A stretch of DNA of 64,000 bases. It comes from Turritopsis dohrnii. Lineage: Eukaryota; Cnidaria; Hydrozoa; Anthoathecata; Oceaniidae. The position numbers and the translations under genes are program-made. Positions 20,815-63,501 of this stretch are shown in pieces. The stretch spans positions 124,001 to 188,000 of the forward strand of contig BQMF02000043.1 of NCBI GenBank assembly GCA_027922465.2. Reading direction: 5' to 3'. Below the pieces are notes generated by a model, which had not been told where the DNA came from, did no database searches, and saw only the letters and a list, made by a program, of their open reading frames with translations. Within the stretch, counting starts at the first letter, position 1; every line of letters begins with the position of its first letter.

Positions 20815-23731
20815 TATCAACCATAATTTCAAAAATATACTTTTAACATGTTGTTACAGACCGCCAAATGGTGACACAACATCATTCGGTGAATATATTG
20901 AGAAAGTTTATAACACATCAAACAAAGAAGAAAAAATATTGTTTGCTATCGGAGATTTTAACTTGAATTGTTTGAACTACCATCAAGATAAAACACACAG
21001 AATTTTATAACAATGTCTTTGCTCACAGCGTAGTACCTTTAATTAATAAACCTACGAGAGTAACAAGTACAACTGCAACACTTATTGATAATATCTTAAC
21101 CAACTGTTTTTATGAACAACCTCTTACGATAGGCATAATAAAATCAGATATCTCAGACCATTTTCCAATATTTGTTTCTTTTAATAAACATACTCGATCG
21201 AAAGAAAAAACTCATAATCAGAAAACGTATTTTTAATGCATCTTCGAAAATCCAATTCAAGGCTAACTTGCAGAAAATGGACTGGAACTTTCTTGAGCAA
21301 TCTCATAATAGTGACGAAACATATGAAAGCTTTTTAAAGATATTTACTGAACTTTATAATAAGTATTTTCTCCTTAAAGAGATTTCTTATAAACAGAAAG
21401 ATTTAAAATCGCCCTGGATTATGAATGGTATAAAAAAATCTTCTAAGACAAAGCAAAAATTATATGTAAAATATCTTAGGAGTAAAACAGTATCTTCGGA
21501 AAGTGAATAAAAATCCTATAAAAATCTCTTTGAAAAAATTAAAAAGAAAGCAAAAAGTATCTGTTATAAAAAATTGAACAGTACAAAAATTGAAAAGTAG
21601 AAAAATGACTCTAAAATGTCTTGGCAAATAATGACAGAAATAACCGGAAAATGTAAAACAACTCCAAAATCACTACCAAAAATGCTCAAAACTGACAGAG
21701 GAATGTTGTATGACGAAACGGCAAAAGCTGAAGAATTTATTACTTTCTATGCCAATGTAGTTTCAATTTTAGACTAATTTCGAAGAATACCTGAACAGAA
21801 ACGACTTAATAATTAACGATGAAGAAGTTGCATTTCATGAGTTTAAAGTCGCATTTAATAACTTAAGTAAAAATAAAGCAGCTGGAATCGATGATATAAC
21901 AATTAATGTAGTACTAGACGTTCGCGATGAAATCAAATTACCCTTGTATAAGATATTTTAAAAATGCGTTAACGAAGGAATTTTTTCCAAATCAACTAAA
22001 AGTTGAAAAAGTATTCAAAGCAGGTGACCCCTCAATTATGGGTAATTATAGACCAATATCTGTACTTCCAGTTTCTTCAAAGATTATAGAAAGAATATTA
22101 CATAATCGAATCTATAATCACTTGATTTCAAAGAAATTGATTTTCCCCAAACAATTTGGATTTCAAGAAAACGTATCTACAGAACGTGCAATTCTTCAGC
22201 TAGTCAACGATATCACTGAATCTTTCAATGATGGTAAATTTACGCTCAGGATATTCATTAATTTATCAAAAGCATTCGACACTGTTGATCACTAGATTTT
22301 ACTTCGAAAACTGAAACACTATGGCATTAGGAGTAACACATACAATATTCTTGAAAATTATTTAACTAACCGAAGGCAACATGTGAGTTTTGGAAGCAAA
22401 GGTCTTTCCAGACCACTGAATATGACGTGCGGGGTACCACAAGGCTCAATACTAGGTCCTCTACTTTTTTTAATCTATGTGAACGATTTTGTGAACTGTT
22501 CATCAAAACTTAAACCAGTAATGTCTGCAGATGATACAAACTTATTTCTATCAAACCATGACATAAAAAAACTCTTCAGTGACATGAATGAAGAACTACA
22601 AAAAGTGACCATATGGTTTCAGGCAAACAAACTGTCGTTAAATGTTAAGAAAACTAAATTTTCACTATTCCATTCATATAGAAGAAAATCTCTTATTCCA
22701 AATGAACTTCCCAAACTATCAATAGGTGATACTGAATTTAAAAGAGACACGGTCACAAAATTTCTTGGTGTGTTAATTAATGAAAATTTAAATTGGTCAG
22801 ACCACATTCAATATATCAACTCTAAAGTATCAAAGGGGATTGGAGTATTATATAAAGCAAAACATATTTTAAACAAACATCTAGTAAAACAACTTTACTA
22901 TGCTTTTGTACATAGTTATTTGAACTATGCCAATATAATATGGGCTAGTACACAAAAAAGTAAGTTAATTTCTCTTGCTCGTCGTCAGAAACATGCCATA
23001 AGAGTTATAAACAACAAAGATCGCAATGCGCATTCTAAACCTCTCTTTGAAGAGTGTGCCATATTAACGCTTTATGAATTAAATATTTTTCAAACCCTAA
23101 CATTTATGTTTAAGTGTGAAATGAAAATCTCTCCACCTGTCTTCTATGACCTCTATACACCTAAAGCCAAGAACAAATACACAACTCGAATGAACAAAAT
23201 GCTAGTCAAACCAATTTGTAAAAATAAACTTAGTCAATTCTGCATCAGATATCGTGGACCACACTTGTGGAATCTTTTTGTTACTCCTTCATGTTTTCTA
23301 TCACACAGTGAATCCTTGCCTATCTTCAAAAATCTATTAAAAAGAGATGTAAAGAAATTTGTAAACTTGTTACAGTACTTCTAATTATAACTCAACCCTT
23401 GTTTCATTTTCCTACCTTTGCATCTAATCTTGTTTATTAGATCACACTATATCTTATAAAATCCGAACATTACAAATTCTTGTCCAAACGTCTAAGACAA
23501 TGAAACATTGGCTGTCGCTACTAAATCGGTTCTCAACGATAAGATCATTATGATCTTCTACGAGTTTCCCGTGTTACTTGGAAACAACTGGTCATAGTTT
23601 ATAGTTATTCTACTCGAATGTACTTTTACTCACGATTTATGATTTCGCATCAACTGCACCTAATATAATGTGGCGTTGTTATATAAACTAGATGAACCAT
23701 GTATGTTTCTTATAACAAAAAATAAAGTATC
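20815..23731 (+). mobile_element. CR1/L2-like LINE, copy 1, 5' truncated
   Basis: Inserted in Helitron H1 and flanked by the 8-bp target duplication ATATCACT (20807-20814 and 23732-23739). The other Helitron copies read AAATATATCACTCTCTAAAA without a break, which confirms the empty site. It starts inside the endonuclease domain and ends with a short tail, CAAAAAATAAAGTATC, not a long poly-A. A near-identical copy lies at 60371-62945. Confidence 0.88.
20850..23384 (+). pseudogene. LINE ORF2: endonuclease C-terminus, reverse transcriptase, thumb
   Basis: Pieces in order: the end of an AP-type endonuclease (CCYRPPNGDTTSFGEY, FAIGDFNLNCLN, ATLIDNILTNCFYEQ, SDISDHFPIF; 20850-21180); a linker (21238-21508); the reverse transcriptase (NYRPISVLPVSSKIIERIL; FINLSKAFDTVDH; GVPQGSILGPLLFLIYVND; SADDTNLFLS; TKFLGVLINENLNWSDHI); and a C-terminal region to LLQYF (23384). 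Disablements: stops at about 21508, 21598, 21775 and 22293, frame shifts before and after the linker, the motif-A first Asp changed to Asn (FINLSKAFD for FIDLSKAFD), and F/YADD changed to SADD. It cannot encode active enzyme. The family is CR1/L2-like by motif order and AP-type endonuclease. Confidence 0.9.
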
Positions 23732-25322: not shown

Positions 25323-26402
25323 TCTATATATTAATAGCCGATTCTCTGTCTGTCTGTCTGTCTGTCTGTTTGTTTGTAAGTCACGCAAAATGGTAGATTG
25401 AGTTGTGAGCGAAATTATTTCTTTTTTTGTGTGCGACGTGAGTTCGAAGCAAATACATTGCAAACCCAATCGAATGTGACTTTTTTTTGGCTGATGAACT
25501 AATAGGAATAACGTTTTGTTTTTATCATTATTGTTAGTTTTATATTCCACATTGACTTGGCTTTGAAAACAGTACATCAACTAAATACAAAGAAACTAAC
25601 TGATTAAACATTTTGGACAAAAAGCAGCAGTGGCAGAACGTGGCAGCATATGTTCGGTTTGCCACTAACTCTTGCCTGACTGTCTGAGACGGGTGAACTT
25701 TTTTTTTGAGCAATCAAAATGTTTAAAAACCGATAGGTAAATAAAATAAAACATAATGTTCATAAAACAAATTGTTTTTTTTTTGCTTTTCTTTTAATAA
25801 ATTAATTTCTTCTTTTAATTGTTAAGCGTTCTGATCGAACGTTTTTTTATTCTATTTATTCATTTAGCACGTGCCTTTTTTCTCTCCTCCGTGTGAACTT
25901 TTTAAGAAGAGAAACCATTTTCCCCCTGTTTGATAGCACCCATGTTAGAGCGCGTAACGTTTTTAAAACAAAAGCTAATAAAAAGTTTTTTTCTCTCTAC
26001 GTTTTGAGTGCATTGTTGTACTGATCAACGATTGTTTTAAAAAATAAATAACACATGAAATTTGGGTTTTTTTGGAACCATTGTAAACTGATATTTGATA
26101 TTTGATTTCGAATCTGCCTCTAGGATAACTGAAGTTTTTTCAGGTCCGCGATACAGGCGATGGGGTGACAAAAAATTTGGGTCTAATTTTTTTGGGAGGG
26201 GTCTGTGACGTCATCAAAATCTTTGAAGAATGATATCTCTGTAACGGTTGATCGCAGCAGAACGATCCCATACATTTTTTTAATCAGTTTTTCGAGCTCT
26301 ACAACATGGTAACACTTTCGGTTGCCAATTCCTTAATTTTATTTTTCGTGAAGTCAACGCATGCTGAACATGGGCGGCGAGCGACGCCGCCTTGGCGGCT
26401 AG
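25323..26402 (+). mobile_element. Tandem Helitron unit P1
   Basis: The 5' end TCTATATATTAATAGCCGAT follows an A. The 3' end is the stem-loop GGCGGCGAGCGACGCCGCC, then TTGGCGG and CTAG (26399-26402), the Helitron pattern of a hairpin about 10 nt before CTRR. A (CTGT)n tract follows the 5' end. The left half is shared with P3 and P4. The right half (ccgcgatacaggcgatgggg ... ctctacaacatgg) is homologous, in reverse complement, to the H1-H4 bodies. Confidence 0.8.
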
Positions 26403-27070
26403 TCTATATATTAATAGCCGATTCTCTGTTTGTCCGTTTGTCTGTTACGCAAAATGGTAGATGTGAACTGCGAAAGAGAGTCATCAATGTAAGATCACAC
26501 ATAAATTATTTCTCTTCTTGTGCGCGACGTCAGTGTGAAACCATTGTATTGGAGAATTGAAAGAAATCTCCGACAGAAATACATATTCAAGAATCTAAAT
26601 CGAAGTTTCAAGTACAAATCGAATTAATCGAGTTTATTTCTTGTCCAAAATGTTTTGTATATGTAAATTGACGCTTTGTATTATATTTTACAGAAAAAAC
26701 TTTTGATGTTGCATTGTATTGAGACCCTAATCGAATGCGACGTTTAGGGAAAATTATCTCGATAACCAATAGGGATAACTGACGTTTTATGGGGTCCGCG
26801 ATACAGGTTATGGGGTGACGAAAAAATTTAGGCCAAATGTTTTTTTGCGACGGGTGTGTGACGTCATCAAAATCTTTGATCGACGATATCTCCGTAACGG
26901 TGCGTCATAGACATATGATCCCATACATTTTCTTGCTCAGAATTTCGAGCTCTACAAGATGGTGACACTTTGTATTGTCAATTCCTTAATTCCATATTTC
27001 GTGAACTCTTTGGGAGGTGACACAACGCAGGCTGAACCTGGGCGGCGAGCGACGCCGCCTTGGCGGCTAG
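26403..27070 (+). mobile_element. Tandem Helitron unit P2
   Basis: Begins TCTATATATTAATAGCCG directly after the CTAG of P1, and ends with the same GGCGGCGAGCGACGCCGCC hairpin and CTAG at 27067-27070. 668 bp. The central part again matches the H-type body (GTCCGCGATACAGGTTATGG, TCATCAAAATCTTTGATCG). Confidence 0.8.
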
Positions 27071-27934
27071 TCTATATATTAATAGCCGATTCTCTGTCTG
27101 TCTGTCTGTCTGTTTGTTTGTAAGTCACGCAAAATGGTAGATTGAGTTGTGAGCGAAATTATTTCTTTTTTTGTGTGCGACGTGAGTTCGAAGCAAATAC
27201 ATTGCAACCCCAATCGAACGTGACTTTTTTTGGCTGATGAACTAATAGGAATAACGTTTTGTTTTTATCATTATTGTTAGTTTTATATTCCACGTTGACT
27301 TGGCTTTGAAAACAGTACATCAACTAAAAACAAAGAAACTAAGTGATTAAACATTTTGGACAAAAAGCAGCAGTGGCAAAACGTGGCAGCATGTGCGATT
27401 TGCCACTATCTCTTGCCTGACTGTCTGAGACGGGTGAACTTTTTTTTTGAGCAATCAAAATGTTTAAAAACCGATAGGTAAAAAAAGAGTATTATATCAA
27501 AACAAAATGTGTTTTTTTTTTTTTTTTTTTTTTGCTTTTCTTTTAACAAATTAATTTCTTCTTTTAATTGTTAAGCGTTCTGATCGAACGTTTTTTATTC
27601 TATTTATTCAATTAGCACGTGCCTTTTTTCTCTCCTCCGTCGTGATGTTTTTAAGAAGAGAAACTATTTCTTCCTTACGTTTGATAGCATCCATGTTAGA
27701 GTGGGTAACTTTTTTAAAACAAAACCTAATAAAAAGTTGAAGTTTTCTTTCTCTACATTTTGAGTGTATTGTTACACTGATAAAAGATTGGTTTTATCAG
27801 AGGTTGTGACTTCGAATATGCTTCTGGTTGAACACAAGTTGTACGAGCCGTTTATAAGGAAATTTGACGTTTATTGATACAGTGATACAGAGCATGTGAA
27901 CATCGGCGGCGAGCGACGCCGCCTTGGCGGCTAG
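27071..27934 (+). mobile_element. Tandem Helitron unit P3
   Basis: Same 5' and 3' termini as P1 and P2, with CTAG at 27931-27934. The left and middle parts are almost identical to P1 (TTTGGCTGATGAACTAATAG, GGACAAAAAGCAGCAGTGGC). The right part (ggttgtgacttcgaatatgc ... gatacagtgatacag) differs from P1/P2 and is shared with P4. A pure T run lies near 27511-27532. Confidence 0.8.
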
Positions 27935-28792
27935 TCTATATATTAATAGCCGATTCTCTGTTTGTGCGTTTGTTTGTTTGTTTGTAAGTCACGCAAAATG
28001 GTAGATTGAGTTGTGAGCGAAATTATTTCTTTTTTTGTGTGCGACGTGAGTTCGAAGCAAATACATTGCAACCCCAATCGAACGTGACTTTTTTTGGCTG
28101 ATGAACTAACAGGAATAACGTTTCGTTTTTATTATTTTGTTAGTTTTATTTTCCACGTTGACTTGGCTTTGAAAACAATACATCAACTAAATACAAAGGA
28201 ACTAACTGATAAAACATTTTGGACAAAAAGCAGCCGTGGCAGAACGTGGTAGCATCTCGGTTTGCCAGTGTATCCTAACGTATCCTTGCCTGACTGTCTG
28301 AGACGGGTGAACTTTTTTTTCGAGTAATCAAAATGTTTAAAAACCTATAGGTAAAAAAAGATATCATAAAGCAAAATATTTTTTTTTGCTTTTGTCATAA
28401 TAGTTGTCTTTAATCGATTTCTTTTAATCTATTTTATTTTATATCAGATCGAACGTTTTTTTTATTCACTTGATTCATTTAGCACGTGCCTTTTCTTCTC
28501 TCCTCCCGTGTGATCTTTTTAAGAAGAGAATCCATTTCCCCCTTACGTTTGATAGCACCCATGTTAGAGCGCGTAACTTTTTTTTAAACAAAAGTTAATA
28601 AAAAGTTGAAGTTTTCTCTCTATACGTTTTGAGTGTATTGTTACACTGATAAAAAATTGGTTTTACCAGAGGTTGTGACTTCGAATCTGCTTCTGGTTGT
28701 ACGAGCCGTTTATAAGGAAATTTGACGTTTATTGATACAGTGATACAGAGCAGGTGGACATGGGCGGCGAGCGACGCCGCCTTGGCGGCTAG
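27935..28792 (+). mobile_element. Tandem Helitron unit P4
   Basis: Last unit of the plus-strand array. TCTATATATTAATAGCCG starts directly after the CTAG of P3. The 3' hairpin and CTAG (28789-28792) are followed by T, the expected 3' flank for Helitron insertion between A and T. Content matches P3 in its right part and P1/P3 in its left part. Confidence 0.8.
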
Positions 28793-28998
28793 TATTTATA
28801 ATTTCTTTATGATTTTTCTTTTTGCTCACCAACGAATACAATATTTTTACATGAGTTAGTCATAAATAAACAATTTCTAAAGTGGTAAAGTGTTTTGATA
28901 AATAATATTAACGCTCGTCTTCATGATGTTCATTGTTTATTCTCGACCCTTTCGTACACAGATTGGACCTTTTCAATAGCCTCGCTTATTCCAGGAAG

Positions 28999-29266
28999 GA
29001 ATCCACAGGAAAAGAGAAAGGCGCCGGTAATAACAGAAACTTCCAATGAAGGTGATAGCGAGGTAGTTCAAAAGAAAATGAAGAAGACAGCCATAATGGA
29101 AGAAACGCCTGAAGCTAATGCGGGAACCAAAATAGATTTTGTACTGATCAGGAATATGACATTGAAATTAAAGAATAAAATTATACTACAACCCTTTTAA
29201 TTAGGATTTTTTTCCGACGGCAAAATTGTACCGTCGTGGTATGATGATTTTGATGAATAGTTTCTA
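28999..29266 (+). CDS. Two exon-like pieces of an unrecognised plus-strand gene
   Basis: After an acceptor-like CTCGCTTATTCCAG the frame reads GRNPQEKRKAPVITETSN, then EGDSEVVQKKMKK and EETPEANAG, a Lys/Glu-rich, nuclear-protein-like segment (to about 29130). A second piece follows ACCCTTTTAATTAG (29204): GFFSDGKIVPSWYDDFDE and a stop at 29259. No good donor joins them; between them lies a short alternate-frame piece ending EYDIEIKE-stop. Codons look sensible, but I recognise no family. It may be a decayed gene end, and it runs opposite to the microexons just to its right. Confidence 0.3.
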
Positions 29267-29318: not shown

Positions 29319-29336
29319 GTTCTGTGGCTTGAGAGT
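29319..29336 (-). CDS. Candidate 18-nt microexon
   Basis: Minus strand: a strong acceptor (TTTGCTTTTTTATAG) precedes 18 nt reading (D)SQATE in phase 1, then the donor GTATGTTTCT. It lies 85 nt downstream of the 24-nt candidate and has the same phase 1-1. Because it is so short it could be chance; support comes from the neighbours. Confidence 0.35.
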
Positions 29337-29421
29337 CTATAAAAAAGCAAAAACAAAAGGCAATTAAGACATAAATCTCAGGCAAATGCCTTGTTCAGCT
29401 TAAAATCATAAGAGGTATTAC

Positions 29422-29445
29422 CCTTTTTAGATGATGTAGCAATGG
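29422..29445 (-). CDS. Candidate 24-nt microexon
   Basis: Minus strand: the acceptor ACATTCATTTAG, then 24 nt reading (A)IATSSKK in phase 1, then the donor GTAATACC. The donor is less canonical than at the 30-nt exons. Its position after a 30-nt exon repeats the 30/24 order seen at 35715/35386. Confidence 0.35.
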
Positions 29446-29617
29446 CTAAATGAATGTAATAAGAGGATTGAGAAAATTGTGACATATGGATGTAATGAAA
29501 CATCAATAAAAATGTGGAAGTTGGATAATATATTGTTAGTAATCTTCATACACACATTCCAGATTACAAATACTACATTTTAAAACAAATTGAAATGAAT
29601 TCTGATTGAATCCTTAC

Positions 29618-29647
29618 CATTTTCACCACCATTACTAGCTGCAAAAT
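29618..29647 (-). CDS. 30-nt microexon (DFAASNGGEN)
   Basis: Minus strand: the strong acceptor TTTTATTTGTCAG, then 30 nt in phase 1 reading (D)FAASNGGEN, then the donor GTAAGGATTC. It has the same length, phase and donor as the exon at 35715-35744, and the same type of flanking intron (..TTGAATCCTTAC in plus). Part of the proposed microexon gene; function unknown. Confidence 0.5.
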
Positions 29648-30192
29648 CTGACAAATAAAATGAAAATGTGAAACATGGAAACTAAAAATAAAAACTAGAA
29701 GCCTCAGGGCTTGAACAATTTCTGCATCAGGCCTAGAGGAAATAGCTTTAGGCTAATTTTCAAGATATCTGAATGACTATCCATTCTGTTCTTGTTGCTT
29801 ACGTGAGAACAGGTCTATCACAATTCCCAAAATATGACTTATGGTTCACATGAAGGATAAAATAATATTCGATAGAAGTGAACCAAAATCATTTGAAAAT
29901 CAGGGAAAAATCAGGGAAGAATCTGCAAGTAACTGCCAACTTTAATATCAGGACCTTCCAATTGTTCTTTGTGCACACCTTCCAAATTTCGCCAGAAATG
30001 TGAATTTGGTAATATATTTAAGTAAACATTACATGAAATTGTTCATAACTTGCATTAATAGGAGCAGGAGAAACTTGGGCATTTCAAAGATTTTAATCCA
30101 TGACATTTAACAGGATTACAAGAAGATAAAAATTATACATAACTTAAATCAACATAACATACATAACATAAATCTATTTCTACTAAACTCGC
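29648..30192. other. Intron-like sequence of the microexon gene
   Basis: AT-rich; no further exon with the right phase was found. A 12-nt possibility near 29803 (donor GTAAGC) has a poor acceptor and is not called. Confidence 0.35.
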
Positions 30193-30357
30193 CAGTGGCG
30201 GATCCAGAGGTAAGCCACAACTTGTGTAGGAGAGTGTTAGCAATTCAAACATAAAAGAAAAAGGTTCAAATAATCCCATTGATAACATGAACTGAATTCA
30301 TAACTTATGTTAATGCGCTTCTCCACAAGTTGCGACTACACTCTAGATCCTCCACTG
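30193..30357. mobile_element. 165-bp MITE, CAGTGGCGGATC family, copy 1
   Basis: CAGTGGCGGATCCAGAGGT at the left pairs with ACTCTAGATCCTCCACTG at the right, with CTTGTGTAGGAGAG / CTTCTCCACAAG inside. It has exactly the same length as the copy at 58019-58183 and a similar interior. CAGTGGCGGATC-type ends occur in hAT MITEs, but no clear target duplication is visible. Confidence 0.7.
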
Positions 30358-30477
30358 TCTGCATATTACCACTTCTATGGAGTCTATAAATAACACCAAC
30401 GTGCCCGAAGAGACAAATGACACAATAAAACTTTGTTAGAATCTGTATGAAAATGTTCTTTTCGAACATGATATACC

Positions 30478-30870
30478 TTAAGGGGATTTTTTTTTGCGTG
30501 GACTAATTTTTGCGAGCCAAGGTTTGAGAGCGTTTTACGTGGATTAATATTTTCAATTCAGAGCTTCTCAAGGAAAATGTTTGGATTTATATTTGCGAAT
30601 AGGCACAAAGGGCGATGTGTGTACTTTATAATATAGCTTAGAAGTAGCAGCAAAAATCACCATTTCCATGCCAGCCACATTGCAAAACCAATATATAGGT
30701 GCTTGATAAGTACAAGGAAATAGTTAATATGTGAAAGGTACGCAGAGCCAAAAAATGAGCAAATAAAATCATGAAATTTTGCGTGGATTTATTTTCGCGA
30801 ATCGTTTATGTCTTGACGTTTTGCGTGGATTTATTGCAAAACTTAATCCACGCAAAAAAAATCCCCTTAA
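30478..30870. mobile_element. TTAA-flanked hairpin MITE (GCGTGGA family)
   Basis: TTAA-GGGGATTTTTTTTTGC at the left is mirrored by GCAAAAAAAATCCCC-TTAA at the right, followed inward by GTGGA/TCCAC in both arms. GCGTGGATTTATT words repeat inside (30781, 30821). 393 bp, noncoding, related in layout to 8797-9034 and 36529-36615. Confidence 0.7.
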
Positions 30871-32089
30871 CGTATTGTGTCCTAGAACATATTACACTCC
30901 AAATTTTCACAAGGCTTTACTGATCTCATTGTATGTATATAATTGGTTGGATTCTAATCATCATCCAAAGTTTCTTTTCCTCTGACATATATCCAAACTA
31001 AATCATTGTGCCTCCATTGAGCGGTTTGCAGGATTATTTTGAACGATGTCATCTTAAAATCTTTTAAACGTGAATTTAAAACTAGTCAGTTCCACACAAG
31101 TGATAACTTGACCGAGCATTGTACAGTGATGAATAATTTGATACAGTCTGGAATTCCCCAAATTACTCCCTTCTTTAATTTATTACTGCTTTTCAATTCA
31201 TTATGACGTTTCGGAGCCAGAAAAACAGTTTTATAAGACACATCGTTCACCAATATCTTGCACATGTTTATACTTTCAGTATGTATGTTTGGGTCAATTC
31301 ATTCACTGAGATTTGTGCTGCAATGACAATTTCATTTGTTTGTTTTTTTTCAATATCTTCAACTTTCGGTGTAATATTTATTAAATGAAAAGAACATGTT
31401 TCATGCATTTATTGATAAGATGTATTCACCAGTAATGTTGATACTACATACTTCTGCTGTGATATTGAAAGTTTTTTTCACAACTAAGTTTCGTTTACTA
31501 TCAAACCTTCACCTTCTTTTTCAAGAATGTTTCCCAGAGTCAGCTAAACATCAATATTTCCTCCATAAGTAATGTTCTCATGATTATATTTCGATTGCAA
31601 TAGTAGACAAGATGCCCTTACGGCCAGAAGGATTTCTGCAAAATCAGCTGAAGTATGAAAATGGAAGACTAACAATAACATTCTTGAAACTTGAAAGATT
31701 TTGAATGATTGAACAATACAATACAACATTGACTGCTGCTCAGTGTAGACTGCACACAGCAGGTGGGGATTGTGACACACAAATTAAAATGAGATTTGTT
31801 ATTGAAATTTTGAAGTTAAATATGTTCAAACAGCTGGCCAAAGGTGTGCTACCAGTGAAAATTTTCATGACTAAATTATTTGAAATTATATGTTGACTCT
31901 TTTGAATGTTTGAATGAGAGTGAGAAATGTAAAAAGTACTTTTATAATTACATAAACAATACACAAATTACATATAAAAGATACGCATGACATAACAATC
32001 AACCCAAAATGACCTAATTTAATCTAACACAATAGAAGAAAAGTTTATAAAAATTCTTTTAGAAATTCGAAAAGGTTGAATGATCTTTA
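30871..32089. other. Intron-like or intergenic sequence
   Basis: No supported gene. A degenerate exon-like match to the 29618 microexon (GATTTTGCAGAAATCC before GTAAGG) lies on the minus strand near 31620-31645, but its length (26 nt, or 14 nt) is not a multiple of three. I read it as a decayed copy at most. Confidence 0.35.
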
Positions 32090-33260
32090 CAAGGCATGCC
32101 GAAAGTGTACTATGTAAAACTTTATTGCATATATACATCTGAATGACATGAAACATTGTTTATTTTGGGTATACAACATACGATTAAGTTTATATTGATC
32201 TTTTCTGATATCACAGTGATTACGTATGAAAATCATGTAATATGCTTTAAACATTTGATATGTACTTCCAATCTTCTTAATTACATACAAACAGAATTCC
32301 CAATGTTGCAAATACAAAAAATAATCAAAGATCTTCATCATTAAAAGTATATGCTCTATAAATTTATACCAAAATTTACCAAAATTTTGTATTGTGTTAC
32401 TCATAGTACAGTAATTTGAATTTATACACAGAACATTTCAATTTGCCAGGACGATGATCAGGGCTACATTACAAAACAAAACGCGATTATAGAAAGAACA
32501 TCAACAAACAAATCAACAAACATAACATAATAATAAATACGTATTTTATACTGACGCTCGACCCACACACAAGCCACATACAAACAGGAACTAATTCACA
32601 ACAGATAACATGAGCAAATAAAAACGTTCAACTACAAAGAAACATATCAACTGTGACTAACAATACAATACGACATTAACACTACATACACGGGTCCACA
32701 CAGCACGTAAAAATTGAACACAACATAATTGTTCATTAACAATCGTGATTAGGAAGATCATTCGTAAATGGGGGCATTGTCAGTATATCTTAGCTAAACA
32801 ATCATCAAGCAAAAGTGGTGCAGAGCTGAGGAGAAAAAGGTGTTAAAGTATTACAACCCAAACAAGAAACAAAAAAATTCTTTCGTATCTAGAAAGGCTT
32901 AAACATTGAAACATTTTCCCCTAATACAAACACATAGCTCTTTGACTCAAAACTTCTGAAGTTGCAACTTTTTAGTTAGAAAAGAATTATCACACTACAG
33001 TTATTAAGTGTACGTACTCCCCAGAGCTTCATGAAAGCATAATTGACACTACAAAAACTTTAAACTATATATACCACCAGACCTATATTTATTAACATCT
33101 GAATGAAAAATACTTACTTTATTTTGGAATAAAGTATACAGAATAATGTTAAGTGTACATTGATCATTTCTGATTTCAAAGTAATTACGTGAGTATATCA
33201 TATAGCTACATACTTCAAACATTAAAGATTGCTATCAATCTTCCTAATTACCAATGGACT
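32090..33260. repeat. Diverged direct duplication, about 960 bp apart
   Basis: 32110-32290 (ACATCTGAATGA ... TTGATCTTTTCTGATATCA ... CCAATCTTCTTAATTAC) recurs in the same orientation at 33095-33255 (ACATCTGAATGA ... TTGATCATTTCTGATTTCA ... TCAATCTTCCTAATTAC). It is an intron-scale tandem duplication, in keeping with the duplicated microexon unit to the right. No exon is evident in it. Confidence 0.5.
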
Positions 33261-34225
33261 AATTTCAAACAAAACAGTAAACACAAATTTTGATCATGAA
33301 AAATACAAAACTGAAAGTTGAATGTTTTTTACAGGATGTGAAGTGTTTCGAATTATATATCAAAATTAGGAAGGCTGTCCATAATTATAGACATTGATAA
33401 CCTAAAAACTACTGATCACCGACAAAAAACAATACTGCATTTCAAAGCATTATACAAGCACATAAGCTTAAAATATAGCTAGAGTGAAACATTAGCTAAA
33501 GATATAAAAGGTGATGCTGAGCAGGCAGACATTTGGAGCTGAGATGGAACTTAAGCTGAGCTGTACGCATCATGAGCTTAAAAAACATTACAGCCCACAT
33601 TTGAAACGAACATTGATCTTTTTTTAGAAAAAATCTCAGACATTAGTCACAAAAACATTCTATTTATAAAACGAAACGAAAAATCTCCATTGAATCATAA
33701 TAATATAATGTAAGATAATAATAAATTACTGCTACAAATTTTATTCTTCGTCTTCAGTTTTGGAAATGTGCTTCTAATTCTACTGACTAAAGCTGCTTTG
33801 GGATCCTTTTGGTTGGTTATTTGTTGTGAGTTTCTTCTTCGACTGAAATGCGTGACTTTGACTTTGGCTTCGTGTAAACATTCGCACGAGATTTCAAAAA
33901 ACCGCTAGGTTTGGACAGCAGAAAAAAAAAACGAAAAACAAAGCCGGTTTTAAAGTATTTCTTGCTTTCGCAGAAATCCAATAAAGTCTTAAAATTCTTC
34001 TTCAAAGCTTCTTCTACATCTACAACTTTGAGGGTAGCCTCAAAACATAAAACAAATCGGTTCGAGAACGTGTTCGGTGTGCATATTTTACTGACTTTTT
34101 AAAGAAATTTTAAAGATATTTGAATTGGGAAGTTTTAAATATAAAACGGCTAAAATAACTTCTAAAATAATTTCAAAAGTATAAAAAGCTTTATATTTTT
34201 ATGAATTAATATTGAAAGTGGCCTT
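33261..34225. other. Unassigned sequence with one coding-like patch
   Basis: On the minus strand 33817-33900 reads FLKSRANVYTKPKSKSRISV before a stop, and an adjacent frame (33835-33720) reads DPKAALVSRIRSTFPKLKTK. Both are basic and look coding-like, but they are in different frames with no splice support. I do not call a gene. Confidence 0.3.
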
Positions 34226-35036
34226 TTTACGGTAGCAGCGAAAGCGAATACCGTATTAAAACACCCTTGGACTCCTACTACTACTCCTACTACTACTACT
34301 ACTCCGGCCGAAACGGCAGTTTTTAGCCTACGATTTAGAGTATGCGAGTCCCTACTAAAAACTCAATATACATTCTAATGAACGAACGCAGCCTTTTTGA
34401 ATTTTCGAAGGTTTTCAATCACATACATTTAAAATACGTTTTCTTTGATATTTTATCACTTAATTGATGAAGGAATGGATATTAATCAAATAGGTCTACA
34501 TAAAACTGGGACTTTTAGTTACTTTTATGGTACTGAATCAATGAACTTTGGCACTTGAAAATAGATATGTTTTTCGTGTCGGTAAAGCACAGATCAGACT
34601 TTCTTATTACTTTCTACGTTTGTTAGCTATCTGTTTTGTCTTTGAACATCAAGGTTTTCAAAAATCGAGTTAAAAAAAGGCAGTTATCTGTTTGAATTCA
34701 TTTTCGGTTTCAAAAAATTATAATTCAAAACATACATTTTTTTTTTCGAAGAAACGCGTTTTTTTTTCTACATAAGCTCTTATAAAAAAAACGTACGTTA
34801 TAAACAGCTCATGCATGTATAATTCTTTTGTCTTCTAATAAATTAAATTGCTGGTGTGTTGCGATTAGACCCTATTTACACGAGTTAGTAATTTTAAACA
34901 TTATAATATCGTTTATGCCTGTTTTCCACCAGTAAGATATCTCAAGAAATAACATTTACAGAACGTTTAAGAACTTTAAGTAAAATTTCAAATTTAAAAG
35001 TATTCTTGTGGCAAGTACTTTTGCTGCTACCGTTTT
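34226..35036. mobile_element. Putative TIR element with a (TAC)n tract
   Basis: TTTACGGTAGCAGCGAAAGCG (34226) and its inverted mate ACTTTTGCTGCTACCGTTTTG (35016) bound about 810 bp. A (CTA)n microsatellite lies at 34271-34302, next to the left end. No transposase and no obvious target duplication. Confidence 0.45.
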
Positions 35037-35385
35037 GCGCCATCTGGCTCTTGTTGTATTACATTTTGCATATAGTTTTTGGGTCTGTCACTAACTATTC
35101 TGAATAAACAAACAATCCGAAATCCGGAACGGACTTTCCGAAAACGACAAAAAACTGTTACGGAGAGAGATAGATAGAATGTATAAATTAAACAATTTCC
35201 TTCACTAAGGCGCGGAAATTGAATAAGATGATTTACTTCTCAAATCTTTGAATGAAACAAAAATACTGCCTACTTCCAGCTATTGACGACGATGATAATG
35301 CAACTAAATGAAATGCAATAAAGCGATTGTAAAAGTTAAAACATGTGGCACTAACAATGGAACATTAATGTGTAACAGCTCTTAC

Positions 35386-35409
35386 TATCAGCTGTTGGTA
35401 AAGCTTGAT
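35386..35409 (-). CDS. 24-nt microexon (DQALPTAD)
   Basis: Minus strand: a very good acceptor (TTTTTTTATTTAG), then 24 nt in phase 1 reading (D)QALPTAD, then the donor GTAAGAGC. It follows the 30-nt exon of the same unit by 305 nt of intron. The corresponding site in unit B has lost its acceptor AG (now AA) and 3 nt. Confidence 0.5.
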
Positions 35410-35714
35410 CTAAATAAAAAAATATTAAAAAGTGACTGTCATACAAAATTTCATACACTTGAAAGCAACTCTATGGATAGAACATAAAAACGCAATATCT
35501 ATATCAAACTGGTATCTATATCAAATAGAGTAAAAGAAGATGTTATAATGACAGCATACAAAAATCCACAATATATTTGAGACAAATTAGTGTTCATAAA
35601 AGAAAAGTAGTAGATTTTGATAAAAAAATACATTTGAATATCATAAATATATTTAGGAAGAATGGTAAACCTGGTCAGTACAATATAGGAAATAATTTCA
35701 ATTAAAATCCTTAC

Positions 35715-35744
35715 CCTTTTCAACATTTTCTTCATTACCAGTAT
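35715..35744 (-). CDS. 30-nt microexon (DTGNEENVEK)
   Basis: Minus strand: the acceptor TTCTTCCTTCATTAG, then 30 nt in phase 1 reading (D)TGNEENVEK and ending G, then the donor GTAAGGATT. It is paralogous to the 30-nt exon at 39134-39163: both start ATACTG, and the flanks are nearly the same. Only the phase-1 reading is free of stops. Confidence 0.55.
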
Positions 35745-36528
35745 CTAATGAAGGAAGAATGATGTTATAAAAATGTTGTAAAAGTTACAACATATGGAAA
35801 GGAGACATTAATGTGTATTGACTCTTACCAGGGATATGTTAAAGCGTAGCTGGATGCAGAGCGATAGATTTTGCTATGTTCTATGTGTGTTGTCAGGAAT
35901 TTCAGGAATGTATGTGATTGTTTTTTTTCGCCAATTAAATTGCTTGAAAGCGTATTTTCAACCAATGAAAAGACGTGAAATAAATCGTGCAAACTTCTGT
36001 TTGACTTGTATTTTATCCTAGCTATACGCGGAATAGTGTTCGAAGCTACAAGATTTTGATTTGGGATTTTGATCAAGAGGAAAAAGTGTACAAGTGAACT
36101 GGGTAATATGCTCAGCATCTTAAAAATTACCCAAACGTTAGCTTATATATATTTAGAACGCCTGCTTTGAAAAAAAAACATGTTTCATTTTGAGGAAAAT
36201 AATTTATTTGGTAAAGAAGGTCGTTGAAAAATGCAGTACAATACTGATGTGGACCTACTGCATGTATAATTAAATATAAACATAACACTTGACAAAGATT
36301 TTTAATAAATCGAAATATTGTGAAAATTTCTTGTGTGTTTTTTTTGTCTTATATATAAATATAAACGTACTTATAAAAGGATGAAAGAAGAAAACTATTC
36401 ATTCATCAGCTAACTGAATGGTTTTAAAATAAAGTAAAATTGCTCCTGACTGTCGAGCATTTTCAGAGAAGAGAAATGTATGCTAATATATATAATTGAC
36501 TAAAATTCCTCTCTGATAATTAACTACC

Positions 36529-36615
36529 TTAAGGGAAGAAATTTTGGCGGGGTTTTGCCCGATTTGGCGGATTGCTTCAAAAACCGCCAAAATCCGCCAA
36601 AATTTCTTCCCTTAA
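36529..36615. mobile_element. 87-bp TTAA hairpin MITE
   Basis: TTAA-GGGAAGAAATTTTGGCGG and its exact inverted mate form an almost perfect hairpin with a short loop. Further GGCGGATT/AATCCGCC words lie inside. TTAA on both sides is the presumed target site. Confidence 0.75.
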
Positions 36616-36632
36616 GGTAGTAGGAGTTTACA

Positions 36633-36989
36633 TACCGTATTCTCTCAAATAAGTGTCCGGGCGCTTATAAAATTTTTTTGGAAATTAGGGGGGCGCTTAT
36701 TAGAGAGGGGCGCTTATAAAAACATTTTGAAATGGTCGTGCTAGCTGTGAACGAGGCATTGCTTTTTATCATATAAAAGAGTAAACACAACTGTATTTTT
36801 CATGGCAACGAAATAAGATTTTGTACTTATAACTTAAATTTAGACGTCACAAAAATATAGCGTTCCGTTTCTATTACAGAATATTCGGTTTTTGTTCAAA
36901 GTTCTAATTACCGACCAGGCGCTTATTAATTTATGAGTAATGTTAAGTCACTCTAATAAGCGCCCGGGCTAGTTAGAGAGAATACGGTA
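36633..36989. mobile_element. CCGTATT-family MITE, copy C
   Basis: TA-CCGTATTCTCTCAAATAAG at the left, AGTTAGAGAGAATACGG-TA at the right. The interior (gaaatggtcgtgctagctgt, catggcaacgaaataag) matches copy B. 357 bp. Confidence 0.78.
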
Positions 36990-39133
36990 CTTAGATATAT
37001 AAAAATAAATAAAAATAAGTATAAATATAAAAACATGGGGAAAAACAAAAAACAAAAAAAACCCCTGAAAATCTAAAAAGCTGAAAAAATGACCAAGAAC
37101 AAAAGGATTAAGAATTTAGAACCTAGATTAGCATGCCTAACAAGACAAAAAGAACAAAGAACCAAGGGTTTAGAGTAATGATGTGTAGTTCTCAAAGGGA
37201 AAATAGAATATAATAATAAAAGAGCTACTGATTTTTTTTATCTTCTTCCATGCAGCATGTTCAAAATATATTTATATAAAATAAATTAATTAATTATATA
37301 ACTATATATACTAAATAAAATAGACAGTGTATATGTAAAATACAATGAAATAATACTAAACAGTACGATATGCAAGAAGACATACTACATTTCAGAGAAT
37401 ATAACCACATTTTTTTAGGCACAGCAAAAATGTGTTTATTTGTTCATTAAAGGAAGTGACGGTTAATAGCATTTTTGTTATTTTTTATATACATGAGAAT
37501 ATATTTTCTGTAATGTGCAGGCAATTTGTATCAACACAAAAGTATATATTCACCCATAACTGGAAAATAAAACATCCAAAATCAGCATTTTTGTCTCTTT
37601 TATAACACTTTTTCAGCAATAATATTGACGTCTATTCTCTCTCTTATATACGTCATCTTGTATTTTCATGCATTGCCAGTTATCATATCTGACTTGACAA
37701 CAATTAACTTTCTTTCATTGAACATATCATTCTAAGCTGTGATTATCAACACAGCCACTGTGCACTATTTGCTTACAAAAGATTCAGTTTATTGGACCAA
37801 CAGTCTTCAATTCCATCCAAGTAAAATAACAATGGCTCAAGCTTGATGATTGAAGGAATGCATTGGAATGCAGATATATAAACCTCAATAAAAGGGGTAG
37901 CTACATAATCTAGCCTAACATTCTGCACTTAAATTAATAGAGGATTCAAATCAAAGAATAAAATATCAAGTCAGGAATTTTTATCATTGATTTATATATA
38001 ACAGGAACATTAACCACCAGTAATTCTAATACTTTCAAAACTCTGCTATATCTGTTTTTGTCCCTGACACAGTCATTGTCTCCTCTTGCCACTCATTTAA
38101 GTATTTTAGAAAGACATTGTTGGTATTTTTTTTAAATATTTCATGCACAATCTAAAAACAAAAACATGACTGCATATTTCATATAGATAAAAGCTTACTA
38201 CTTCATGTCTACATACACCTCTTAACACATCTACATCTGGAAATGCAAAATCATATGAAAATAGACAAACATAGTAAGGAAAACTGAAACAGCCAGCAAC
38301 CACACTCAGCCATAACCTAACCACAGTGAAACGAAGCGATTTCTTGCACATAGTAGATATTCATACCGAGTTTTCGTTTGTTTTGAAATAGAAAATTTCT
38401 GCCATTTCATTACAGGTGTCCTTGCAGTTCAGAATAATATCACATGACATACAAGAATTTAGTGAAAGTCACGTGATTAAAGTGACGGAAAAAGATATAG
38501 ACGAAAAGAAAATGACGTAGATATATGCCCCAGAAAAATGAAAGTCGTGGGAGATCGTGGTCTTCCCTGATTCTATTTTCACAAGATTTGCTCAATTTAA
38601 TGCTTTATCTTGCCTTGACAATTAGCATGATATCAGGGAATTCCTCCTTCCATCGATATAACACCAACAGATTTCGCTCTGTGCGAGGCTATAAATGGCT
38701 GTTTATCATCCTTATAAGGCAGGATACGATTTAAATCTTGTTTAAAAGTCTAAAAGCTTCTTTGACAAAAGTCTATCTGAACTGAGATTGTACAGAAAAC
38801 GTATAGATGAAGTAAAAAGTGGCTTTTTGTGACTTATCATTTTGATCGCTTCATGCCGCTTGGCCGCCATTTTTGACAACACACATAGGACCGTCTTTGT
38901 TTTCTTAAAACAAAAGAAATTCAATGAACATTTTTGTTTGTCGAATCTCGCTCTGCATCCAGCTACGCTTTAACATATCCCTGCTCTTACTATAAGCTGT
39001 TGAAGAAGCATTTAAATAAAAAAAAGGTTTAAAAAATAGGTGTCATAAACTTCATACACTTAAAAGAAAAAAAATAAAGAAAAAACAAATTGAAAACATT
39101 GAAAACCAAAATAGTTTCAATAAAAATTCTTAC

Positions 39134-39163
39134 TCGTTTCTGGATTTTCTATATCATCAGTAT
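39134..39163 (-). CDS. 30-nt microexon (DTDDIENPET)
   Basis: Minus strand: the acceptor CCTTTCCTTTAATAG, then 30 nt reading (D)TDDIENPET in phase 1 and ending A, then the donor GTAAGAATT. The two other frames contain stops. It is the paralogue of the exon at 35715-35744 within the duplicated unit, and the peptide is acidic like its partners. Confidence 0.55.
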
Positions 39164-39296
39164 CTATTAAAGGAAAGGATGATGGTGATGGTAGCATACA
39201 GAAAAGCCTGAGACATCATAAGGGTATGCGAATGAAAAGTTATTGATAAAATGAAATTTCTGCAGAAATTTTCATCTGAAGCAAAAAAAATTTTAC

Positions 39297-39323
39297 CTTT
39301 TCCTAAAGGTGTATCTTCTGTCC
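39297..39323 (-). CDS. 27-nt microexon (GTEDTPLGK)
   Basis: Minus strand: an excellent acceptor (GGATTTCATTTCAG), then 27 nt in phase 1 reading (G)TEDTPLGK and ending G, then the donor GTAAAATT. It sits 133 nt upstream of the 30-nt exon at 39134, in the same phase, so the two would join as ...GK-D-TDDIE.... Confidence 0.5.
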
Positions 39324-39840
39324 CTGAAATGAAATCCATAAGCTTTAAGTATTTTAATTACTTTAATAGATAGTTTTAAAAATAATGTTTTATCCTGAGA
39401 CAATTCCATGGGGCTTTCAAAACCAACAGCCATTATAGATTTTATTTATATAGCACTAAATGAAGAAAAAAATTACAATTACGGAGAGATAATATGGAGC
39501 ATGCCCTGCCTTTTGGTTCATGAATTGTTCACAAAGTTTCCTTCAGTAACAATTCATTCAGAACGTAAGTCAATGGGACTTATTTTATAAGTATACAGAT
39601 TTTTCAATAGGTACACAGTCGCGAAACAACAACAATTTCAACAGTGGTCACACCAAATGATTACGATTTTTTTTGTTTGTTCAATTTATTTAATGTCCGA
39701 TTTTTACTTTACATAGCTAAAAATACACTATATATAAATATGCATATAAATAGCCAATCTATCACGACTGAAATATTTACAATTACTTTTAACGGTATAA
39801 ATACTTGTATAGATAACTACAAGACATTCAGGATTTGAAA
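39324..39840. other. Intron or intergenic plus LINE 3' UTR
   Basis: No further in-phase microexon was found. The right part is probably the 3' untranslated tail of the minus-strand LINE that follows. Confidence 0.35.
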
Positions 39841-43169: not shown

Positions 43170-45340
43170 CTAGCCGCCCAGGCGGCGTCGCTCGCCACCC
43201 ATGTTCAGTATGCGTTGTGTCGCAGAATTTAATTTGAGTAAAAGTTTCTTTTCAGGCATTAATTTTTTAATTAATTTCTTACATTCAGAAAATTTAAAAC
43301 AGAAACAAATAGCAATATGGCTCAGATTATATATCTATATGCAGAAGAGATGAGAAGTAACTTTTGTGTAAAAATAGCAAAAGCACAGAACAATACAAAA
43401 CATTGAATAACATTACGAAATGTGCATTGAAAACAAATCGATACCTTCCAATTGTGTTTCTTTTGTGCCAAAGTTACATTGGTTAGCAACCATTAATGAA
43501 TTTTTAAAATGATAGTCTGTTCTTCCCAAAACCATCAACATCATGATTAAAACCATGAGTTTCACTTCTTTATGCTTTTTTTATTGTTGCCTAAAAGATT
43601 AATATTTCAATTGTTACACCGAAAACCTAATCATGCTATAAGAATATTGAAATAAATAACAACAACAACAACAACAACAAAAAAGAAAGGAATTCTAGTA
43701 CGCATTTATCCTAAAAACAATATATAACTAAGAACAAAAATTTACCCAGAAGATAAAAAGTCACAAATAAAATCATAAAGCCAAAGTTATATACCTAGGC
43801 ATAGTACGTAAACAATTATCATAACACAAAATAATGCATAAACATGATAAAATATAAACTTAAGAAAAATCCACCCAATAACGTTTCATTGCACAGTCAT
43901 AATTAATGATCTTCTTAAATACATAATCCATTCTTCTCTTAAGTTACCCACTCAACATTATAATTCAACCCATCATGTGCATCATTTCTTTTTTAACAGA
44001 TGAAAATATTCAAAAAACATATAAAAAAACCTAATCATGCTATGACGAAATCGAAAGAAAAACAAAACAAACTAAAAGACACTTTGAAAACATATTTACC
44101 TTAAAAATTATAATTAAAAACACAAACATAATGACAGAATTAGTATAGCTAAAAAAGAATTTTTAACATATGAAAACATTCACATTGTGAAGCCATTTTT
44201 TATTTCCAGTTCAAAGCTCCTCCCTGGAAAATTCAAAACACAAAAGTAAACATCCCTCATATCCTTTATTTATTCACTAATACTAACTGTGTTTTAACTA
44301 AATAGATACTATTTTAACTTTACCTTTCAATACCAATTCACATCATCATGATAGTAAACAATTTTGATCATCTGTAAGCCATTATCAAACACTTCTAAAC
44401 TCTTTACTTTCTATACTTCATACCTGTAAACAAATTAATACACTCGATTTACTTCCCAGCATAGTTTTCTGACACTGAAAGGCATAAATAAAGAAAAAGA
44501 TTTCAGACAAATAAAAGAAATAAAAACATTCATAGCTGTAGGACCATTTTTAATGTAATAATAGCGCGCGTTACCAAAACAAATTTCTCTCGTCTTCCTT
44601 TTAATCCAGCAGCATATACACATACTAAACGACAGAATAACTGAGACATCCACTCAAAGCTTTCAAAACTAAATTAAAACCATTCCATACTGTGTAAATA
44701 AACATCAAACTGCTTTCTTCTGTATAGCGATATTTGATAACTAAAACGTAAACAAACATTTAAATACATACATACATAACTCACCTGTTCTTTTATTAAT
44801 CTAAAATATTAAACAATAAAAGTTTTACGATAATACTACTTTGTATAGACCTGTTCGTTCGTTCTGCACAGCCAATTTTTAAAAACTTTACTGCACTTCT
44901 TCTGTATTCTCAATATGCTTTCACATTGTAAACAAACTAATCACTTACACTGTTACTGTTCTTTTATTAATCTAAAATAAAATCTGAAATACAATAACAA
45001 TAAAAGTTTAACAATAAACAGTTTCATAAGCAGCACGTATACAAACCTGTGTTTCTTCGTGAAAACAACTGCGATAATGAAAATCAGTTATTAACGAACT
45101 TATTTTTGGAAATCGTCAACCAATCAAATTGGCGAAAAAATAATTTCTTGCGTTTTGATTGGTTTAAAAATTTAGACGTCACACTTAAATTACGTAACAT
45201 TAAAAAAAGTGTCTGTCGCGGCTGCGTGGTTTTACGACGAAAAGGGAAAAAATAAGAAGGTTTTGACCGTGCAAAAAAACCCAAATATATCACTCTCTAA
45301 AATAAAAGTGGTATGCACAACGCGGATTATTATAATAAGA
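43170..45340 (-). mobile_element. Non-autonomous Helitron H6
   Basis: 5' end at 45340: TCTTATTATAATAATCCGCG after A. 3' end at 43170: hairpin GGTGGCGAGCGACGCCGCC, then TGGGCGG and CTAG, followed by T. The 3' hairpin is the same as in the plus-strand units P1-P4, while the 5' end matches the H family. The 2.1-kb interior is AT-rich, with a run of (ACA)n near 43655-43680 and no protein domain. Confidence 0.7.
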
Positions 45341-45378
45341 TAACCGAATAGGCCACAACAATCAAACAATCGCGACAT

Positions 45379-48300: not shown

Positions 48301-49240
48301 TGATGAGGTCGATTGTATCGACGTTGGTCACCCCCGCTTCTTGTATGCATTCTAACCTGGAAAACAATAGTAAAGATCTCTAAATATTAGTTCAAAGGTT
48401 TCTAATTATTAATTTTCACTTATCGTTTTCCATTTACCTCAAATGGGCAACGATTTTGTTCATTTGCAAGTTGAAATTCCTCCGCTTCTACCTCACGCAT
48501 GTGTTTGTAAGCAGCTGCATACTCTCCCTTAAAAAGATGTCTTGCAAATTTGCATCACTTCGGGGGAGCAACCTCGATTTTCTGGTCTTGCCATTCCCTC
48601 ATGCATCCATACCATCATAGATGTATAAGTGACCAAAGGATGGAGGAATATCCGGTGGTGGGTACAGATTACCTGTTCGGTGACATACCTGGCCATTAAT
48701 ACGAAAAACTGGTGGACCACAACCTTGTGGTACAACCAATTTTGCACTCATTGAAGCAAAAGCAACAGAACTTTTGAACTTTCAAATATTGAAAGTTCTT
48801 TGATTTATTAGAATCACCTATTGAAAGCTCTTTAAGATCATTAGGATAATAAATGTGATCTAAATGAACTTTACCATTGTGACAGCACTTAAAATGCTCT
48901 CATCAGCAAACATCTTGCCATCACAAAATTGGCAGACCTTTTCCACGGCGCCAAGATAATGTGGCTCAGACATTTGGTCTTGTCGAGCAGCAAGAGGATT
49001 AGCATCATCCCGTCTAGCCCTCATAGGTTGTGCATTCTCATTCCTCCTGGCTAATCTCTCATCTGGCTGTTGAGCTTGACGATAATCAACTTGTCATTGA
49101 GCATTGTTGCTTCTAGGTCTCTCATTTTCTGATACTGGTTGGATGTTATTCGCCTGAAGCTGTTCACGCCTTGCTTCACCTACATCCTCATTTGCATGCC
49201 TACGCTGAATAATAGAGCGCATTTGTTGTTGATCAGGTGG
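45379..49240 (-). pseudogene. Helitron Rep/Pif1-helicase protein, decayed
   Basis: Domains in N-to-C order: zinc-finger-like start (HYLGAVEKVCQFCDG ... CCHNGKVHLDHIYYPNDLKE; 49240-48790); FRINGQVCHRTGNLYPPP and FGHLYIYD (48720-48600); QRRYNRPHHDEVTGVLVDED (48340-48210); Rep (EFQKHSLPHAQIL, MIHGPCC, YRRRDNGRTV; 47928-47440; then VKYLLKDVYKGHDCANF); then GERFFLRVLLLHVAGVTSFE. Pif1 helicase follows: Walker A GQAGTGKSF (about 46870-46840), Walker B FLIDEATM (about 46630), [38 protein letters not shown], and YSFTINESKGQTFEKIGL (45600). At least six frame breaks exist. The HUH motif reads HAQ (47844-47836) and the Rep Y-x3-Y reads Y-LLK-D, so the nickase is dead even apart from the frameshifts. Confidence 0.92.
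46115..46294. repeat. Copied Rep-region segment inserted in the helicase region
   Basis: Near-identical to 48017-48220 in the same orientation (TTTTACCTTATAAAGATGGG ... TGAATGAACAGGCAAATTC), but lacking about 27 bp after ACGACGTTG. It is flanked by a duplication of TCAGGAATTTTAATGGAA (46094-46111 and 46294-46311), which encodes the helicase-linker SIKIP on both sides. It disrupts the protein. Confidence 0.8.
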
Positions 49241-54089: not shown

Positions 54090-54109
54090 CTAAACAAAAA
54101 TGTTTCAAT

Positions 54110-54767
54110 TGTTATTTTGGCTTGATGGAAAACTACTGAGTAAAACAACTTTGGGAGTTTTACCATACTTGTAAAAATCATTTTGACGCAGGAATCCTTT
54201 AAGGGAATAAGATCGTGAAAAGTATGATGAACCCTAATTGTCACATGGAGCCAACGTATAATACAAAATAGTTTCATGTAAACAAACTATGATTTTTATG
54301 AATTTGTTGTTTTTCTTTTCAAAATCATGCTTGTCAAAAGAACAAAACAAAACAAAAAAGTCGACAGGCACCCTATCAAAATTGAGTGGATATTATTGGA
54401 ATAAAACTTAGTTGAAGAAACTTTACTCAAATACTTATCAAAGCCTCGTTTATACTTTTATACGTTTATAGATAAATTTATTTGAAATGAAAAGTAATGT
54501 TCCCTTCGAGAAGCAGTTTTTTTTAATTCGATACCTAAATTTTCTACTAGGAAAAAGATAGAATGCCAATGTTTTCTAATGATTGATCAGCAATTTTTTC
54601 TATTTTCTATTTTACCCAATGTGAGAGAGAGAGAGACTAAACCAACCCAAAAAAGGGCATAGGCCGCATACCTAAAGTATGAGGATCACAGCGCATAAAA
54701 TAAATTATAAATACTATACTATTTGATAAAGAAAATAGTATTGTCAAAAAATATATCATTAGGGATC
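54110..54767. other. Upstream of the ankyrin exon; no exon identified
   Basis: Probably intron. A (GA)n run lies at 54625-54636. The open frame at 54065-54277 overlaps the ankyrin exon in another frame and shows no domain. Confidence 0.35.
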
Positions 54768-63159: not shown

Positions 63160-63501
63160 CAACAGCATCACTTTCATCTGATCCTTCTTCATCACTTTCA
63201 ACTGATCCTTCTTCATCACTTTCATCTGATCTGTCTTTATCACTTTCATCTGATCCTTCTTTACCACTTTCATCTGATCCTTCTTCGTCACTTTGATCGG
63301 GTCCTTCATGAAACATCAGAAGACGTTCACAAGAAGGATTAGCACTTTCTTCAGTATTTTGTCTGCATTCTACGCTTAAGGACGTTTCTATTTCTAATAA
63401 TGCTTCATTTCCATGATGATCATACTTTTTTGTTTTTACAACTTCCAACTCTAAGACAGACAAATTTTTATTAAAAATCAAACTCCTCCCACATGGAAGG
63501 T
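63160..63501 (-). CDS. 342-nt acidic exon with SDESDEEG repeats
   Basis: Minus strand: the acceptor ACAATGTTGCCTAG, then 342 nt (114 codons) open in phase 1, then the donor GTAAGATC. The reading starts (D)LPCGRSLIFNKNLSVLEL, continues EALLEIETSLSVECRQNTEE and CERLLMFHEGPDQ, and ends in five acidic 8-residue repeats of the GSDESDEE type. There is no ATG, so it is internal. Phase 1 at both ends is the same as in the microexons at 29.3-39.3 kb, and the acidic Ser/Asp/Glu content is similar. They may belong to one gene, although 24 kb of transposons and an ankyrin exon lie between them; a separate paralogue is equally possible. Function unknown. Confidence 0.5.
63165..63300. repeat. 24-bp coding minisatellite
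   Basis: Five to six units of CTTTCATCTGATCCTTCTTC, period 24 bp, in frame with the acidic exon, encoding GSDESDEE-type octapeptides. Confidence 0.75.

Follow-up and report, generated by a model that had tools for sequence, protein, structure and literature searches.

The MEG genes of schistosomes, as outlined in the accounts drawn on here, carry most of their coding region in very small symmetrical exons that can be skipped in frame, have introns of 0.1–5 kb and are enriched in transposable elements; their products have a signal peptide, are rich in apolar residues and are described as restricted to platyhelminths (PMC4350168, PMC10526429). Exon 5 of cardiac troponin T is described as a developmental cassette of 9–10 mainly acidic residues, and four isoforms arise from combinations of exons 4 and 5 (PMC4012202). 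The bicycle genes of aphids are reported to carry arrays of numerous tiny internal exons, almost all in phase 2, and to encode proteins with CYC motifs (PMC9168663). We describe here a stretch of 64,000 nucleotides (the window) from the hydrozoan Turritopsis dohrnii (contig BQMF02000043.1, positions 124,001 to 188,000), in which the minus strand at 29.3–39.3 kb appears to be an internal part of a coding gene with at least eight symmetrical phase-1 microexons of 18–30 nt. Together these would encode a polar, probably disordered segment and would be individually cassette-spliced, a reading to which we assign a probability of about 0.65.

The array comprises eight candidate exons, which are sequence features rather than proven exons, and their small size (18–30 nt), lengths in multiples of three and shared phase 1 recall the MEG genes. 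Introns of 82–305 bp within its two exon clusters and a 5.6-kb intron between them can be set beside the 0.1–5 kb given for MEG introns. In contrast to the apolar-rich products described for MEG genes, only 11% of the residues encoded by seven array exons are hydrophobic, a figure that refers to the array segment and not to a whole protein. The likeness to schistosome MEG genes invoked in the original prediction thus stands as an analogy in the possession of very small symmetrical exons, with a signal peptide, secretion and a flatworm origin not established. In troponin T, as characterized in the source cited, combinations of short acidic cassette exons alter how large and how charged a segment is, and the array may do likewise (Asp/Glu account for 12 of the 54 residues from seven exons, and cassette use is presumed); the troponin T gene differs in having few such exons and a conserved core. 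The aphid genes resemble it in having many very small exons, nearly all of one phase, but the array is in phase 1 (phase 2 contains ten stops) and encodes no cysteine, so that neither the phase nor the CYC motif described for bicycle genes is found. By analogy, the array may work as MEG genes do, or as the variable region of troponin T does, membership being shown for neither; these two and the bicycle genes are nearest in architecture. It is probably a real instance of an architecture already known, in which the birth and death of exons can still be read. A literature search, judged from its listings, returned no paper that could be tied to the array locus. Such arrays are hard to detect by annotation based on open reading frames (ORFs) or by standard spliced annotation.

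Candidate phase-1 microexons and the segment they would encode

The nine exon-like features of the array, in the direction of the minus strand, are as follows.

39297..39323, minus strand: E1, candidate microexon, 27 nt, phase 1, TEDTPLGK, weak donor gtaaaa, without duplication support
39134..39163, minus strand: E2, X-type microexon, 30 nt, phase 1, TDDIENPET, donor gtaaga, paralogue of E3
38991..39011, minus strand: Y0, fossil microexon, 21 nt, ASSTAY, acceptor AA instead of AG, donor gtaagag, a copy of E4 minus three bases
35715..35744, minus strand: E3, X-type microexon, 30 nt, phase 1, TGNEENVEK, donor gtaagg
35386..35409, minus strand: E4, Y-type microexon, 24 nt, phase 1, QALPTAD, donor gtaaga
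35274..35303, minus strand: E5, microexon found by mechanical scan, 30 nt, phase 1, ALSSSSIAG, donor gtaggc
29618..29647, minus strand: E6, microexon, 30 nt, phase 1, FAASNGGEN, donor gtaagg
29422..29445, minus strand: E7, microexon, 24 nt, phase 1, IATSSKK, weak donor gtaata
29319..29336, minus strand: E8, candidate microexon, 18 nt, phase 1, SQATE, donor gtatgt, without duplication support

Seven of these exons (E1–E4 and E6–E8) had been predicted beforehand, and all seven were recovered at their coordinates with AG upstream and, in order, the donors GTAAAA, GTAAGA, GTAAGG, GTAAGA, GTAAGG, GTAATA and GTATGT. Their lengths (27, 30, 30, 24, 30, 24 and 18 nt) are each a multiple of three and their peptides agree with the earlier reading. 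That reading lacked the exon at 35274-35303, the duplication of the two-exon unit and the fossil at 38991-39011. The claim that phase 1 is the only open reading holds for the seven exons taken jointly (0 stops in phase 1, 2 in phase 0 and 10 in phase 2) but fails exon by exon, since five of them are open in another phase as well: 39297 in phase 2, 35386, 29618 and 29422 in phase 0, and 29319 in all three. Read in phase 1, the seven joined exons give 54 residues, including 12 Asp/Glu and 6 hydrophobic residues (11%), as against 49% hydrophobic residues in phase 0. All eight exons joined in phase 1 would encode TEDTPLGKDTDDIENPETNTGNEENVEKDQALPTADIALSSSSIAGNFAASNGGENAIATSSKKDSQATE, in which the cysteine count is 0. 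The exons are 59% purine and 37% GC, compared with 48% and 31% in the surrounding stretch.

Under the proposed mechanism, phase-1 splicing would join the exons into an acidic, Ser/Thr-rich segment of about 70 residues if all were used, and the composition suggests a disordered linker or stalk. No exon of the eight ends in T, and neither does the fossil Y0; because the lengths are also multiples of three, any subset of exons keeps the frame and creates no junction stop within the array, which bears out the proposal that each could be skipped or included without a frame change. With such frame-safe subsets the gene could adjust how long and how charged the segment is, and the evolutionary gain or loss of exons would cost little. 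The spliceosome would include or skip each exon individually, and if all eight were independent cassettes, a single gene could produce as many as 256 in-frame versions of a disordered segment. The predicted cassette-spliced, probably disordered protein is accordingly retained in part: frame, composition and duplication point to a polar, probably disordered segment built from microexons, while individual skipping is arithmetically possible only. We read the array as probably cassette-spliced.

It is possible, if on the unlikely side, that the microexons are real but spliced constitutively, with no isoform choice and with duplicated exons merely lengthening a disordered linker. Elastin, a gene of many tiny same-phase exons, provides the constitutive comparison, and the evidence from exon sequence fits both kinds of splicing equally well. 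Under a generic splice matrix only 35715 and 29618 stand out among the exons, and five of the eight donors are low-scoring (seven were scored by matrix, the gtaggc of E5 by eye). Uniform use would be unexpected for weak donors, yet several donors (35715, 29618) are strong; optional exons fit slightly better with the five low-scoring donors and with the loss of an acceptor in one copy without evident frame cost. It appears highly improbable that the array belongs instead to a known contractile-type gene (troponin T, for example) as its variable region, in which short acidic cassette exons lie near the N terminus. The architecture is like that of the cardiac troponin T exon 5 cassette, but the array residues are as much Ser/Thr/Asn/Ala as acidic, and no troponin core turned up among six window ORFs scanned against Pfam, none of which had been chosen for troponin.

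A duplicated two-exon unit and its decay

A two-exon unit, consisting of a 30-nt X exon and a 21- or 24-nt Y exon with their introns, is duplicated in tandem. The segment from the exon at 39134 to the fossil at 38991-39011 is collinear with that from the exon at 35715 to the exon at 35386. The local alignment, made with a 3,155-bp inverted-repeat element (below) left out, scores 77.8, and the best of 1000 shuffles reached 32.0. Pairwise figures, here and below, are from among the matches listed: E2 and its flanks match E3 and its flanks over 76 nt (79%, E=2e-13), and the Y0 region matches the E4 region over 104 nt (71%, E=3e-11), a match that is partly T-rich. Within the aligned unit, exon X is ungapped and the two copies of exon Y are three bases apart, one codon's worth, while the gaps in the introns are of 1, 2, 3, 7 and tens of bases. 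The first intron is 122 bp in the first copy and 305 bp in the second, which thus has about 180 extra bases. This paralogy is independent support for the array.

Where E4 has its AG acceptor, Y0 has AA, and the interrupting element lies at the donor of Y0:

35829..38983, strand not assigned: mobile-looking element, 3,155 bp long, whose inverted ends of 36 bp are perfect and start CAGGG

GTAAGAG flanks the element on both sides, and the insertion point is the Y0 donor. No plasmid match was found to 35000-39400. The array would have grown by tandem duplication of an X–intron–Y–intron unit, after which one Y copy would have lost its AG acceptor and received the element at its donor. If so, the array records growth as well as decay, in the duplicated two-exon unit, the copy without an acceptor and the exon pair that differs by three bases.

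Further kinship is seen among the introns. The intron before E5 resembles that before E3 (73 nt, 70%, E=5e-4), and three shuffle comparisons set the second cluster (29.3–29.7 kb) against the first. The intron before E7 matches that before E5, in the other cluster, better than any of 2000 shuffles; it matches the intron before E3 more weakly, with 22 of 2000 shuffles as good. On the donor side, E6 and E3 match over 37 nt (76%, E=0.004), although for the intron part alone 50 of 2000 shuffles did as well. The whole second cluster gave weak scores against the duplicated unit (shuffle p 0.03 and 0.011). A profile built from three X copies recovered only those three in the window at E<0.2, among the matches listed.

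Accelerated evolution of exons relative to their flanks was also considered and rejected, the differences for E2/E3, E3/E6 and E2/E6 being non-significant (Fisher p 1.0, 0.49 and 0.24) in an ungapped comparison in which the upstream flank is possibly out of register. Between E2 and E3, five of nine whole codons differ and all five differences change the residue, a number too small for a test.

Chance expectation and the weight of the evidence

The density of such exons was compared with chance by a scan that required a donor type, a pyrimidine tract of at least 9/14, openness in phase 1, no more than 25% hydrophobic residues and a length of 15–36 nt. Over the 64-kb window this polar filter gave 18 candidates at 16 distinct donors, eight per strand. 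All eight minus-strand donors fall within 29.3–39.4 kb, and three of the eight on the plus strand are copies of one repeat. Applied in phase 0, the same filter returned 9 candidates, 1 of them inside the array stretch; in phase 2 it returned 8, with 2 inside the stretch. For that stretch (10.3 kb), the eight phase-1 donors compare with a shuffle mean of 0.87; none of 400 second-order Markov shuffles reached eight, and the maximum in any phase in the same shuffles was five. When real sequence was divided into 10.3-kb tiles, minus-strand tiles off the array had no phase-1 site and the top plus-strand tile had four, mostly from one repeat. Hydrophobic residues make up 11% in the seven exons compared with a mean of 42% in 121 other candidates, and none of 200,000 random sets of seven was as low. 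That the exons are coding, or recently were so, is supported by frame and composition: a common phase and a polar make-up recur in exons that show no evident likeness to one another, and the sole exon length change in the aligned unit is of three bases.

Several observations weigh against a functional microexon gene. The scan settings and cut-offs were fixed after the first-reported exons had been seen, and the enrichment figures are therefore indicative only. By splice score alone, phase-1 candidates on the minus strand number seven at score 4, against a third-order Markov mean of 4.95; at score 8 there are three (two distinct exons), against a mean of 0.55. Phase 0 on the same strand equals phase 1, with eight candidates at score 4 and three at score 8, and by openness alone no phase is in excess across the minus strand as a whole: of 31 candidates, 21 are open in phase 1, 20 in phase 0 and 18 in phase 2. 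E1 and E8 lack support from duplication. The copies share their signals by descent, so that E2/E3 and E4/Y0 are not independent witnesses, and they diverge alike in exon and flank, which gives no direct sign of selection on the exons. Splice scores near chance, signals inherited by duplicates and equal divergence of exon and flank would all be accommodated if the locus were tandemly repeated non-coding DNA, in which chance splice-like motifs and short open frames had subsequently been copied. We consider this unlikely, as dissimilar exons share phase, length class and polar composition, the shuffles do not reproduce the eight donors, and the single length change between aligned exons preserves the frame.

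With the AG acceptor of Y0 lost, part of the array looks dead, unless Y0 uses an AG that lies inside it, and the remainder might be dead too. On such grounds, together with the element at the Y0 donor, the locus could be a formerly coding array that is now a pseudogene. This also seems improbable, given that eight of the nine exons retain both splice signals and an open phase 1, and that loss of a symmetrical exon or gain within an intron need not harm a gene. A bolder reading would make the array part of a MEG-like gene outside flatworms, in which a fast-turnover surface or secreted protein owes its variable segment to a birth-and-death array of phase-1 microexons, enlarged as two-exon units were duplicated, and its diversity to both alternative splicing and exon turnover; we regard this as very doubtful. 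Signal-peptide-like first exons with phase-1 donors occur four times on the minus strand, two of them upstream of the array, and once on the plus strand, none of them tied to the array, and the minus-strand enrichment is not convincing, which likewise counts against the array gene.

Other candidate exons and the surrounding window

The nearest upstream signal-peptide candidate, at 49856-49925, was set aside because it sits between repeats that border Helitron-type ORFs. These ORFs occupy 45243-50467 on the minus strand, between two copies of a 92-nt repeat, with the Pfam domain Helitron_like_N at 47440-48027. One further candidate for another part of the gene was noted:

63160..63450, minus strand: possible upstream exon (291 nt, phase 1-1), an acidic stretch carrying DESDEEGS-like 8-residue repeats; donor gtaaga, acceptor assigned by eye

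It lies in an acidic ORF (63092-63514, minus strand) that contains an in-frame 24-nt repeat and ends at a phase-1 donor, GTAAGA. No relatives of this ORF were found at E<=0.001 among 2393 word-sharing candidates. The exon might belong to the same gene as the array; about 24 kb with other ORFs intervene.

Just past the last microexon, on the opposite strand, an open frame of 103 residues (28889-29197, plus strand) is polar with a Lys-rich middle and may be a remnant or belong, as an exon, to a different gene. At 26300-28800, repeated units contain CTAGCCGCCAAGGCGGCGTCGCTCGCCGCC at least four times, and this motif had no exact matches in genome_contigs and viral_contigs. Neither a tRNA nor an Rfam family at gathering score was found in the window. 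It is AT-rich (29–41% GC in 2-kb steps) and rich in the remains of mobile elements, including reverse transcriptase ORFs and a Helitron-type ORF; an ankyrin-repeat ORF is also present. Judged by its genes and repeats, the window looks animal-like. Two closely similar copies of a reverse transcriptase element (21142-23384 and 61136-62560, plus strand) are 98% identical over a 300-nt stretch. The reverse transcriptase ORF had 7507 matches among 7994 scored, and the best 120 of the 7507 were all at or below 61% identity; six of these 120 carry a name, in no case that of an animal. At 52180-54111 on the minus strand, a 643-residue open frame consists of ankyrin repeats with a 99-base period.

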